NCBI GenBank assembly: GCA_017934845.1
Contig: JAGBIR010000077.1
Location: 1-13,309 of the forward strand
DNA length: 13,309 nt
Source: Alistipes sp.
GTDB lineage: Bacteria > Bacteroidota > Bacteroidia > Bacteroidales > Rikenellaceae
Direction: 5' to 3'
The notes below the pieces were generated by a model. That model had not been told where the DNA came from, ran no database searches, and saw nothing but the letters and a program-made list of their open reading frames with translations. Each line of letters opens with the position of its first letter. The first letter of the stretch is position 1. Of the stretch, positions 2,216 through 12,464 are shown one piece after another. The position numbers and the translations under genes are program-made.

Positions 2216-2248
2216 AAAAAAGCCTCCCGACAATTCGAGAGGCTTTTA
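2216..2248. terminator. Bidirectional rho-independent terminator
   Basis: A stem pairs 2218-2226 with 2239-2247, continues after one C-A mismatch with CGA/TCG, and closes on a CAAT loop. An A-run on the left arm and a T-run on the right arm let it work on both strands. It serves the convergent patatin-like gene (plus) and fimbrillin-type gene (minus). Confidence 0.85.
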
Positions 2249-2267: not shown

Positions 2268-3871
2268 TTAGAAGTTGTGCTGAACACCGTATAACTTCAA
2301 CTCAGCGATTGAAGTTGTTGTTGTATCGTAAGCACCATTATTTCGGTCGGCAACAGCCTTGAAACGAACATAACGGCAAGGCTTAGTGCGGTTATCAAAC
2401 TGAACCTCATAGCCATTAACATAGCCTGTATTATAATCCCAAGCAACTCCTGCTGATACACGAGCATCATGCTCACATACCTTTACCCAGCCATCGAGAA
2501 TACCATTTTCGGGAGTGCTATCATCACTTACCCAAATCTCAAACTGACCCGGAGTATTCTTATCCAAACGACCACCACGGCAGAACAAACGCAAAGCATC
2601 AATCTGAACTACCGAGCCTAAATCAATAAAGATTGAGAATGGATATGTCTGACCATCGGGACTATTCCATGCAGAGTCCATATAAGTATAAACGCCATTA
2701 TTACCGCTATCAGGAGTTGTTACATTATCCCAAATTTTCTCCAATGCAGAGGTACCATTTGAGTGTGCTCCAGCCTGCTTAAAGCTGCTCTCTGAATATG
2801 TTACATCGGGATATGCTGTCTGCAAAGCCTCGGTAGGAGATGAACCACCCCAATAAGAACCATAAAGCTGTGCATCGGTCATTGCAGTCCAAGATGTAGA
2901 TGGCAACTCCGCTGACTTAGAGTTTGTTGTAGGAGCAATATCCTCATTGTCCAAATTAACATCCTCCCAATCTGTGATTACAACATCAAGATTAACCTTA
3001 GTTGCATTAACAGTAACGGTGAAGTTATGCTTCTTGCATGGCTCAAATGTAAAGCCCTCCTCAACAACAAGAGGATAAACTACGCCATTAACACTAACTG
3101 AAATCAAGGTCTTACCTGCCTCGATAGTCTGAGGGATAATCATTGCGCGATAGATCTCCTTAGTCTCGGTTACAGCCTCCTCGCCTTCACCGGTAGTAGT
3201 TGTTACCTCTGTCTTCCAAGGAGTAACTACAGTAGCATTACCTGCCGGAGTAACAGCACCGGTTGCCAAATCAATTGTACCAGCTGTCTTTACACCATAG
3301 AAGAACAACTCTACATTTGCACTCTCCAAATTAGGATCGCTCTCAAAACCTGTACCACCCACAAGAGTAACAGTAGCATTACTCAAGATATGCTTCATAT
3401 TCAAAGTCACAGCAGCAGTTGTAGGAGTAACATCTTCCTTCTTTGTCCACAAGAAATCGCCTGCCCAATAGTCAGCCTCGTTGCTCTGGATGGTCTTAAC
3501 CTCCCAAGGCAATGCGTTTACATCGGTGATAGGTGTAGTATAAGGATAGTAAGCATAGAAATCTGCGTGAGTTACCATATCTCTCCAGAAAATCTCCTCA
3601 CTGGGAGTCCACGCAGAGCCATCGAAAGTGAAATCCACGTTATTCACATGGTTAGCATCTGCAGTAAGAGCGTGTGCAGAGCCATTATAATTTACAACAT
3701 ACAAACCAATCTGGTCGTCTGCCTCAAACTCGGTGTCGGTTGCACGTGTAATTGTTGTAGAAATGTTGATCGGATTTTTAGAGTCGGGATTTACCCCCCC
3801 AATTCTGACTTTGAACAGCCCGCCAAAAGCGTTACAAGGGCCATAGAAAGCATTAAAAGATTCTTTTTCAT
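2268..3871 (-). CDS. Fimbrillin-family lipoprotein with C-terminal discoidin-like domain, frameshifted at a G7 tract
   Basis: A putative surface adhesin or pilus component, anchored as a lipoprotein. From the ATG at 3871 the first frame reads a textbook lipoprotein signal, with lipobox LAGC at residues 16-19 (Cys19). It then stops after 26 residues, immediately past seven consecutive G (3794-3800). The remaining 508 codons are in the next frame, starting VNPDSKNP. One extra G (or loss of two) would join them into a 534-aa protein. Residues of about 30-315 are fimbrillin/Mfa-like (ITRA near the start, a WRD...DFYAYYPY segment, a closing ITDW). Residues of about 318-534 resemble a galactose-binding-like (F5/8 type C, discoidin) domain, with FIDLG, RLFCRGG, FEIWVS, CRYVRFKAV and AELKLYG. 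A TTG at 3878 would keep one frame open but loses the signal peptide. Phase variation, pseudogenisation and a sequencing error are all possible. Confidence 0.8.
3794..3800 (-). other. G7 homopolymer, candidate phase-variation tract
   Basis: Seven C on the plus strand give seven G in the coding strand, at codons 24-26 of the fimbrillin-type gene, just after the lipoprotein signal. With seven G the ribosome meets TAA at once. With eight it reads L-G-G-V and continues into the mature domain. Confidence 0.65.
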
Positions 3872-3910
3872 AGTTCAAATAGGTTTAGTAAATAAAGGTT
3901 TATAATCTAT

Positions 3911-3918
3911 CAAAAATA
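3911..3918 (-). promoter_or_regulatory. Possible -7 box of the fimbrillin-type gene
   Basis: TATTTTTG on the minus strand fits TAnnTTTG and lies 40 bp upstream of the ATG at 3871. No good -33 box is seen at the normal distance. The rest of 3879-4191 holds a 7-bp inverted repeat (CAATATC/GATATTG, 3967-3973 and 3988-3994), the tricorn gene terminator and a 16-bp tandem duplication, with no gene. Confidence 0.35.
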
Positions 3919-10205: not shown

Positions 10206-11402
10206 ATGAGGAAGCTCCTACTTATAATCTCCACTGCATTGCTTGTTGCCTGTGATAGCGGCCATCGTTTTATAATAGATGGCGCGATAACAAATGCCGA
10301 AAATGGCGAAATGATATGTTTCTCATACCCCGTAAAGCGCGATGGCATTTGGCATAATCAGCGTGATACGACCTATATCAATGACGGGCACTTTCGCTTC
10401 GAAGGTAAAATCGATGGACTTGTACCTGCAGAGTTATCGTTTCAGAACATGGATTTTGCGGAGGTATTTATAGAGCCTTCGGAAATTAAATTTAGCGCAG
10501 AGCGAAATGCTTTGTATAACTATTCAATGTCGGGATTAAGTATCGACAACGAACTAAATGAGTATCGCAGGGCCTTTTCCGAATACGACAAGGCTGTTTA
10601 TCAGAAAAGCTACGAAGCGATGCGCAAAAATGAGGAGTGGATGAAAGCTAATCATGCCGGCCTTCCAAATACCGACGAACTTGGGGTTGAGTTCTACTCG
10701 TTGGTATTAGCGCATCACGAGATAAGTAACTTATGGCCCGATATGGCGATTAAATATATCGAGAGCCATCACAGCCAAACCATTATCCCATATTTAATCG
10801 ACAAGTTAATCAGTTTCAATTACGATATAACGACTATAGAGTCGCATATTAGCGCGCTATCGGAGCAACAAAGAAATAACCTTCTTGGTGAATTGATGCA
10901 AATTCGCTGCGACATTGCCAAGCTAAACGGCGGGAAGGTGGGTAGCAAAGCGTTGGATTTTACACTCCGTTCTGCCGATAGCAAACAGATTAAACTCTCG
11001 GAGCGCTACGCCAAAGGCTTTGTGCTACTTGATTTTTGGGCAAGTTGGTGCGTACCGTGCATCAACGAGATACCGAAGGTTCGGAAACTACACAAAGAGT
11101 CTGGCGACAAACTGCAAATTCTCAGTATCTCGGTAGATGAAAATGAAAATGATTGGCGTCATGCAGTTGAACGGCTAAATCTCATCGAGTGGCCACAACT
11201 GATTATAGACCTCCCAGAAGATACTGAAAGTTATTACTTTGCAGAGCTGGCAGACATGTCACTTGCTTACGGGATCGAGCAAATACCAAGCTTTATACTT
11301 ATCGATAAAAACGGTATCATTATAGGTCGTTGGTCGCATTTGACATCCGCAACTATCAAGAAGATAGAGCAGATAATCAATAATGAAATAGATTTAGAAT
11401 AA
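10206..11402 (+). CDS. DUF4369 and TlpA-like thioredoxin-fold lipoprotein
   Basis: A putative envelope-anchored thiol:disulfide oxidoreductase. From the ATG at 10206 (398 aa) a lipoprotein signal MRKLLLIISTALLVAC ends in a lipobox with Cys16. An upstream in-frame TTG at 10194 only adds four residues, so I reject it. Residues of about 20-105 look like the DUF4369 beta domain (FIIDGAITNA, GHFRFEGKID). A mainly helical linker covers about 110-240. The TlpA/AhpC-like thioredoxin fold covers about 245-390, with active site WCVPC at 281-285 and the cis-Pro in QIPSF (Pro361). DUF4369-TlpA proteins are common in Bacteroidetes; substrates are mostly unknown. It lies in the repeat-bounded block, is AT-richer than era or the tricorn gene, and its 3' end overlaps the opposing peptidase gene by 9 bp. 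Confidence 0.9.
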   Translation: MRKLLLIISTALLVACDSGHRFIIDGAITNAENGEMICFSYPVKRDGIWHNQRDTTYINDGHFRFEGKIDGLVPAELSFQNMDFAEVFIEPSEIKFSAERNALYNYSMSGLSIDNELNEYRRAFSEYDKAVYQKSYEAMRKNEEWMKANHAGLPNTDELGVEFYSLVLAHHEISNLWPDMAIKYIESHHSQTIIPYLIDKLISFNYDITTIESHISALSEQQRNNLLGELMQIRCDIAKLNGGKVGSKALDFTLRSADSKQIKLSERYAKGFVLLDFWASWCVPCINEIPKVRKLHKESGDKLQILSISVDENENDWRHAVERLNLIEWPQLIIDLPEDTESYYFAELADMSLAYGIEQIPSFILIDKNGIIIGRWSHLTSATIKKIEQIINNEIDLE

Positions 11403-12464
11403 GCTGCGAATATATTCAGATCGTTGATTATCGGTAATATTCAATAACTCAAATACTTGGTCGTAGGTTGTCGCCTTAAATAATCGCGATACTTCATTTT
11501 CGCCACCTCGCTTCAATACATCCTCTATTATAGCAGCAGCTACGACATTCGATAATTGGATGTCTTCGTTCAGCAAAGTGTTAAGGGACTCAATGCTACA
11601 AAAATCTACACTATGCTGCTCAATGAAGGCTTTTGCTATAGACTTAACTCCTTTGTAGTCATGTTTCGCCACGCCGCCGTAATATGTTGCAATACCTTCG
11701 TGAAGAAATAACGGAGCATTGGGATACAAAGGAAGCATGATAGCATGGATGATTTCGTGAATATGATCTAATCGTGTAGAGAGAACAATATTGTTTATTG
11801 TGCGCCCTGCGTATGATTTGTGAGAGCGTATTGGGGTATATGTAAGTCCAATCATAGCAGAACATTCGTCTATGCTGTTGGCCGCAACATAGATAATTCC
11901 ACCGCTATTCTCAATACCATAATTGCGAATAAATGCGTCAGCGAATTTTGCAGACTTCATCATAGCTCTATTATCAATAGCAACACCACTGCCAATATAG
12001 AACTCTACGCATCCTTTATTATATTGCACATATCGGCTCTTGGTGGCATCAAAATAGTTCATTAAACGCCAAGCGTCGCCAGTCTGTATTGCGCAGACTT
12101 TATAAATAGAATTGACCAAACCACCTTTTATGGCACTATCGGGATAGTATGCAATTGTATTGATCTCGTATATTTCATCAGAAAGTTTGCGGACATTATA
12201 TGTATTTAGCAGACCGTCCTTATGCAAACCAATATGTATGTCGTAATTACCATCGACCCAAAATTGTGAGATATCAGAACCTGTATCTATAGCATTTATA
12301 TACCCATTCCAGACTTGACTTATAGCAGACAGATTTTCATCATTGTTGAAATACCCCAATTCAGATGAAAAAGTTAACCGCTGAGCATTTACATCAAGGC
12401 TAAACAAAAGTGTAATTATGACTGTGTAAAATGAATATTGAACCCAATTCATCGTTGTAATCAT
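11394..12464 (-). CDS. Secreted putative zinc metallopeptidase (HExxH, gluzincin-like)
   Basis: I do not recognise a named family. The 356-aa product starts with a signal peptide (hydrophobic VQYSFYTVIITLLFSL, likely cut after VNA before QRL). An ATG at 12452 would equally keep it. Residues of about 35-160 form a beta-rich region of unknown type. Residues of about 170-270 look like a peptidase core, with HEIIH at 236-240 (His236, Glu237, His240) followed 16 residues later by Glu256 in FLHEGIATYYGG. This is the HExxH...E layout of clan MA gluzincins, in which the distal Glu is the third zinc ligand. The last 80 residues are helical. The right 138-bp repeat lies just upstream and carries promoter-like boxes. 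There is no terminator room, because the stop lies within the opposing TlpA-like gene. Peptidase function is inferred from the motif alone. Confidence 0.75.
   Translation of the reverse strand: MITTMNWVQYSFYTVIITLLFSLDVNAQRLTFSSELGYFNNDENLSAISQVWNGYINAIDTGSDISQFWVDGNYDIHIGLHKDGLLNTYNVRKLSDEIYEINTIAYYPDSAIKGGLVNSIYKVCAIQTGDAWRLMNYFDATKSRYVQYNKGCVEFYIGSGVAIDNRAMMKSAKFADAFIRNYGIENSGGIIYVAANSIDECSAMIGLTYTPIRSHKSYAGRTINNIVLSTRLDHIHEIIHAIMLPLYPNAPLFLHEGIATYYGGVAKHDYKGVKSIAKAFIEQHSVDFCSIESLNTLLNEDIQLSNVVAAAIIEDVLKRGGENEVSRLFKATTYDQVFELLNITDNQRSEYIRSLF

Follow-up and report, generated by a model that had tools for sequence, protein, structure and literature searches.

A G7 tract separates a lipoprotein signal from its fimbrillin-like body in Alistipes: a candidate slipped-strand switch

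Organization of the locus

The DNA analysed here (hereafter the window, 13,309 nucleotides) is contig C165 of a MAG of the GTDB genus Alistipes, which comprises 1.65 Mb in 242 contigs and is 70% complete. Genomes, loci and proteins are numbered with G, L and P, respectively, the window's own genome being G000. The gene under study lies on the minus strand and is divided between two reading frames, as follows.

2216..2247, minus strand: terminator-like hairpin followed by T6, just after the gene, recognized by eye (A6 on the plus strand at 2216-2221)
2271..3791, minus strand: body of 507 codons in the other frame, without internal stop; stop codon at 2270-2268
2286..2693, minus strand: discoidin/galactose-binding-like domain (Pfam DUF5000), body residues 367-502, 40-41.5 bits against a cut-off of 25
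2967..3749, minus strand: fimbrillin-like domain (Pfam Mfa_like_1, PF13149), body residues 15-275, 200.3 bits against a cut-off of 27
3791..3871, minus strand: short frame made of the lipoprotein signal, 6 residues past the lipobox Cys and a stop
3794..3800, minus strand: G7 tract (C7 on the plus strand), at the junction of signal and mature body
3815..3826, minus strand: lipobox LAGC, Cys codon at 3817-3815, GGCTGT at 3820-3815
3911..3918, minus strand: -7 promoter-like element TATTTTTG, 47 nt upstream of the ATG

The ATG at 3871 opens MKKNLLMLSMALVTLLAGCSKSELGG, and the stop at 3793-3791 directly follows the G7 tract. By motif, the signal is that of a lipoprotein processed by signal peptidase II, with a basic start, a hydrophobic stretch and a lipobox ending in Cys. 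The first-pass annotation had proposed such a signal at this ATG, ending right after the tract, and the minus-strand reading confirms it. It had also assigned 508 codons to a fimbrillin/discoidin body in another frame; the frame and the domains hold, and the length is corrected to 507 codons. The frames at the tract likewise confirm that this copy is out of frame (OFF, as opposed to ON for a joined copy). The body frame is open farther upstream, as far as a TTG at 3878 (536 codons). TAnnTTTG is the Bacteroidales -7 promoter consensus, to which TATTTTTG was matched by script; a -33 element at the usual spacing from it was not found.

Profile searches with the first domain of the body matched 4k4k, 4eps and 3sy6, and fold searches matched 4k4k (E 3.6e-13), 3ufi, 3sy6 and the pilins Mfa3, Mfa4 and FimA. 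By profile and modelled fold, the domain is thus predicted to be that of Bacteroides cell-adhesion and fimbrial proteins. The structure model has a mean pLDDT of 62, with values mostly of 68-89 at residues 51-260 and a dip near 151-160; because the C-terminal half was modelled poorly, only the first domain was used. A marginal F5_F8_type_C match (28.7 bits, cut-off 28.2) appeared only when the C-terminal 210 residues were scanned alone, and an NCBIfam scan of the body gave no match. The lipobox and the fimbrillin-like fold together predict a surface lipoprotein.

In a Pfam scan of 8 window proteins, the genes beside the locus encode a tricorn-like protease, a patatin-like protein and a GTPase, which we take to be Era-like; no further fimbrial gene was found among the 8. 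All other window genes are open and unbroken, so the assembly is not generally indel-ridden. The 356-residue protein encoded at 11394-12464 (minus strand) matched nothing in Pfam or NCBIfam.

Length and placement of the tract

The G7 tract is the sole G or C run longer than 5 in the window, and by its position, its length determines the reading frame. The whole G000 genome contains 19 G tracts of at least 7 bases (merged from 46 overlapping matches), namely 2 G7, 9 G8, 7 G9 and 1 G11. Sampled stretches of this genome (62,760 bases) hold 177, 25 and 2 G runs of 4, 5 and 6 bases, respectively. Given this fall, a few G7 runs are expected per genome, and since G7 lies in the gap of the run-length distribution, its length by itself is not exceptional. 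The other G7 of this genome (L100, C196:4293-4299) belongs to the gene of a small secreted protein, where it is in frame and follows closely on the signal.

The placement of the tract, unlike its length, is remarkable. In 127 loci examined, 93 of 95 lipoprotein-like starts are free of G runs longer than 5 in the 75 nt past the Cys codon; the remaining two, both with G7, are the window gene and its relative in G145. Among the 264 Gly codons counted across eight genes of the window, 11 are GGG; the window body has none among 35 and the G145 body none among 34.

A second species out of frame at the same tract

A match to the whole length of the body was found only in G145 among 180 genomes of the genus (own genome included), and a survey of 268 genomes of the family again yielded only G145 besides the window. 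G145 is Alistipes sp. RGIG8642, a MAG from the caecum of a water deer; it is the nearest genome relative of G000, and belongs to a different species. The genomes met in the searches included no further member of the species to which the window belongs. Many of the related loci found by name are in Alistipes or Rikenellaceae MAGs from ruminants and other herbivores. Searches of genome contigs with the body alone and of viral contigs with the body alignment gave no confirmed matches; in plasmid records, there was no DNA match to the query and one protein match (22.5% identity over 55%).

In the G145 gene, a G7 tract likewise occupies the junction and leaves signal and body out of frame in the opposite sense; of the two wrong frames, its body uses the one that the window body does not. 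The first-pass annotation had looked to close relatives for a G8 copy; the one relative available as DNA does not have it. Its body is intact over 493-495 codons, so a tract fixed at G7 in relatives and accompanied by decay of the body, the outcome that was to speak against switching, is not what is seen. The signals of both genes are intact. The genes that neighbour the G145 locus, which are presumably sirtuin-like and TsaD-like, differ from those of the window.

The window and G145 bodies are 65% identical, with dN 0.23, dS 0.81 and dN/dS 0.28 over 490 codons. In this one pair, the bodies thus look constrained, as though kept by selection despite being out of frame; OFF periods may be short. 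The first-pass argument that a long body speaks against old decay gains from this ratio and from the second species being out of frame at the same tract.

Intact siblings and exchange of the second domain

A protein search with the body returned 78 proteins, 10 of which have both domains; a search with the alignment returned 52, including the same ten. Both searches scored only the approximately 7,990 candidates sharing most words, and the list of siblings may be incomplete. In eight of the 10 two-domain siblings found, the protein starts with a lipoprotein signal that continues into the body. In seven (P0002, P0003 and P0006-P0010), the signal is followed by 3-4 Gly residues at the junction, and in P0004 it is joined to the body without a Gly run. 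Since Gly-Gly-Gly can be encoded without a tract, as at L287, where the junction Gly-Gly-Gly has no G run longer than 2, the Gly runs seen among P0002-P0010 were rejected as proof of a poly-G tract.

P0010, known as a protein only, is 97% (first domain) and 92% (second domain) identical to G145 and reads intact. Thus, both species are OFF at the tract, and a sibling of the G145 protein is ON. The two siblings without a signal differ in context. P0001, whose first domain is 98% identical to that of the intact P0003, begins after the junction despite a longest contig of 167,893 bases; this is how an out-of-frame allele would be called. P0005 begins at the junction on a contig of 2,220 bases and may simply be cut by the contig end.

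First and second domains do not vary together. Identities of the first and second domains are 97% and 75% between G145 and P0007, 98% and 76% between P0001 and P0003, and 100% and 64% between P0006 and P0009; the reverse holds for the window and P0007 (63% and 87%). Near-identical first domains paired with different second domains, and vice versa, suggest that the discoidin-like domain has been reassorted between siblings.

Poly-G tracts in Alistipes genomes

The median density of runs of at least eight G is 12.3 per Mb across 37 genomes of the genus (own genome included) and 1.95 per Mb across 24 genomes of other Bacteroidales families (p 4e-9), a difference of about 6-fold in which base composition is uncontrolled. 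In all three genomes sampled (G000, G145 and G091), G runs avoid lengths of 6-7 and pile up at 8-9; runs in G145 and G091 show a gap and pile-up similar to those in G000. For instance, lengths of 8, 9, 10 and 11 are represented in G091 by 5, 23, 3 and 1 tracts (32 distinct of 34 listed).

The pattern GGCTGT N0-30 G7 matched in 51 of the 180 genomes of the genus. The tract sites tested number 81; they include 77 among the matches listed, and the window and G145. A lipoprotein signal is present at 9 of these 81 sites, where GGCTGT is followed by at least seven G, compared with 13 of 476 GGCTGT sites without a tract across the loci examined (p 0.0019). A stop occurs within 60 codons at 4 of the 9 signal sites with a tract and at 0 of the 13 without one (p 0.017). 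Reversed controls of the pattern searches also match often, and only the fraction of sites that bear a real signal is used for inference.

With a looser signal filter, 18 of 119 tracts pass, 12 in frame and 6 out of frame. Two more loci come in addition: L266, in frame, and L377, out of frame, which was found on examining 68 additional loci with 81 tracts. The six out-of-frame cases are no evidence by themselves, because 409 of 1,607 random positions passing the loose filter are also out of frame, a share that 6 of 18 does not clearly exceed; only the strict lipobox test counts. In three genomes, only 5 of all 70 tracts are signal-proximal and followed by a long frame; the figure is 0 of 70 on the C strand, and random positions qualify in 2.9% of cases (1,607 of 56,000; p 0.05). 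L290 and L326, provisionally scored as out of frame, were discarded as script artefacts, having no tract and signal frames of 111 and 260 codons, respectively; L305 had been scored from a wrongly chosen Cys and is in frame.

The tract-bearing bodies are varied. They include DUF4493 (two), SusC-like receptors (three, one OFF), BACON, a subtilase (OFF), DUF4465, Fib_succ_major and DUF3575, and six have no Pfam family. Genes out of frame at G8-G9 past the signal encode lipoprotein L182, SusC-like receptor L185, secreted protein L200, subtilase L202 and the short lipoprotein L377. The homologues L182 (OFF) and L184 (ON) share 47.6% identity, and in each a similar signal precedes G9. Among 18 L184-type and 30 DUF4493-type loci, the tract is present in only four, all already in the set; the signal-proximal arrangement is sporadic and not a family trait.

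Most tracts of at least eight G in the three genomes lie outside long frames. Several precede lipoprotein genes. In G000, three loci (L092, L094 and L101, on contigs C62, C89 and C198) have G8-G9 with the ATG of paralogous DUF6562 lipoprotein genes 103-104 nt downstream, and the element TACCTTTG occurs 30-31 nt from the tract start at all three. Three DUF6562 paralogues of G138 (L358, L367 and L369) have G9 206-219 nt upstream, a DUF6562 lipoprotein gene of G145 (L244) has G12 539 nt upstream, and an Mfa_like_1 lipoprotein gene of G135 (L339) has G9 131 nt upstream. Judged by position, these tracts are candidate poly-G transcription switches. In G091, many intergenic G9-G10 tracts (e.g., L255, L279 and L281) belong to a repeated element in which they stand beside a C-rich stretch (cccctccccga...G9) that could pair with them as a hairpin.

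Two pairs of genomes allow a direct look at slippage. G176 and G177 (L212/L213) are 99.6% identical over 3.19 kb, with 10 substitutions and three one-base indels, and both G tracts in this stretch differ by one base. We rejected this pair as proof of slippage, because G177, a single-contig genome, has the shorter form at each of the three indels, and sequencing bias could therefore explain them. It was also rejected as an ON/OFF lipoprotein pair, there being no signal peptide before the tract. G135 and G138 share 2,994 identical bases, with G9 equal in both. From such comparisons, slippage at G tracts appears plausible.

Discussion

The window gene is best explained as a contingency locus in which a single-gene surface lipoprotein is switched by slipped-strand length changes of the G tract between signal and mature body; we put the probability of this reading at roughly 0.7. 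We prefer it because of the anatomy of the locus, the constraint on the body, the opposite shifts of the two out-of-frame alleles and the near-identical intact sibling. A tract length joining both frames would yield an exported, surface-anchored lipoprotein with fimbrillin-like and discoidin-like domains. At other lengths, translation would end just past the signal, giving no useful product. The window would carry an OFF allele and G145 an OFF allele in a different frame. Changes in tract length would presumably be frequent and reversible, the product may bind host or dietary glycans or other cells, and switching could help the cell to evade immunity or phage, or to bind a different target. 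Against this, seven bases are short for a hypermutable tract, the intact siblings are known as proteins only, the loose genome-wide tests are weak, the tract is absent from most homologues in two other families that include tract-bearing genes, and G9 is equal in the stretch shared by G135 and G138. The slipped-strand switch proposed in the first-pass annotation is thus partly supported: it gains from the second species OFF at the tract, the constrained bodies, the intact siblings and the recurrence of the arrangement in both states, and loses in that the relative with DNA does not have G8.

Old decay fits the evidence poorly. The next most probable reading, although unlikely, is a young pseudogene, in which a recent, fixed indel merely happened to fall in the tract. 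Only one allele per species is known, and a long frame can outlast a frameshift for a while; such a history would nevertheless need two independent losses at one 7-base site, as G145 is out of frame there too, with an intact body, intact signals in both species and a dN/dS of 0.28, and as P0010, nearly identical to G145, is intact. It is improbable that the population is in frame and the tract length of the MAG is a consensus error: homopolymers are the usual place of such errors and the MAG is fragmented and incomplete, but an independent MAG of another species is alike in the opposite sense, no other window gene looks broken, and errors of short reads usually need runs longer than seven bases.

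We regard as more improbable still that programmed ribosomal frameshifting or transcriptional slippage at a fixed G7 yields the full protein. In the signal frame, the tract forms the heptamer G GGG GGG directly before the stop, a shape that allows ribosomes to slip, yet the direction of the shift is not conserved. The window and G145 would need opposite senses, for which reason programmed frameshifting was rejected as a common mechanism, and 8 of the 10 siblings found need none. Least likely of all is a cytoplasmic body made without the signal, with translation beginning at the internal TTG at 3878 or farther downstream. The frame is indeed open that far, but the signal is joined to the body in those same eight siblings, and the fold of the first domain resembles that of exported adhesins and pilins.

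In Neisseria, the G tract of pilC lies in the signal-peptide region. Poly-G switching is known as a kind, for instance at Neisseria meningitidis contingency loci such as hmbR and hpuAB, going by the accessible text of PMC3786947. As in those loci, a homopolymeric G tract lies inside the frame of a surface protein and its length decides the frame; the window gene differs in belonging to another phylum and a herbivore-gut commensal, in encoding a fimbrillin-like lipoprotein, in having the tract exactly past the lipobox and in that switching is here proposed from sequence. By Pfam, profile and fold, the protein belongs with the Bacteroidales fimbrillin-like proteins (Mfa_like_1; 4k4k, 3ufi, 3sy6 and 4eps; Mfa3, Mfa4 and FimA). 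Unlike these, it has a C-terminal discoidin-like domain, which varies between siblings with near-identical first domains, and no further fimbrial gene was found next to its own in the window.

Phase variation in gut Bacteroidales has been described as DNA inversion, and in Bacteroides it affects capsule promoters and shuffles SusC/SusD genes (PMC12632263 and PMC11868660, in their accessible parts). Stochastic switching of surface proteins, SusC-like receptors included, is common to those systems and, as proposed, to Alistipes, a member of the same order; invertases and inverted repeats operate in the former, whereas slippage of a G tract is proposed for the window locus. In the open-access literature, we found no report of homopolymer or slipped-strand phase variation in Alistipes and nothing linking Bacteroidales, phase variation and slipped strand.

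A wider proposal, which we advance tentatively and hold to be slightly more likely wrong than right, is that poly-G tracts form a genus-wide phasome in Alistipes, in addition to inversion of the Bacteroides type or in its place. G8-G12 tracts before paralogous surface lipoprotein genes would switch transcription, and G7-G9 tracts past signal peptides would switch the translation of lipoproteins, SusC-like receptors and a subtilase. The window gene would be a member which, by exchange of discoidin-like domains between siblings, is reassorted as well as switched. Should the window locus and others of its type switch by slippage of a G tract, Alistipes would have switchable surface proteins that escape inversion finders, and annotation would be turning such genes into pseudogenes or truncated proteins.
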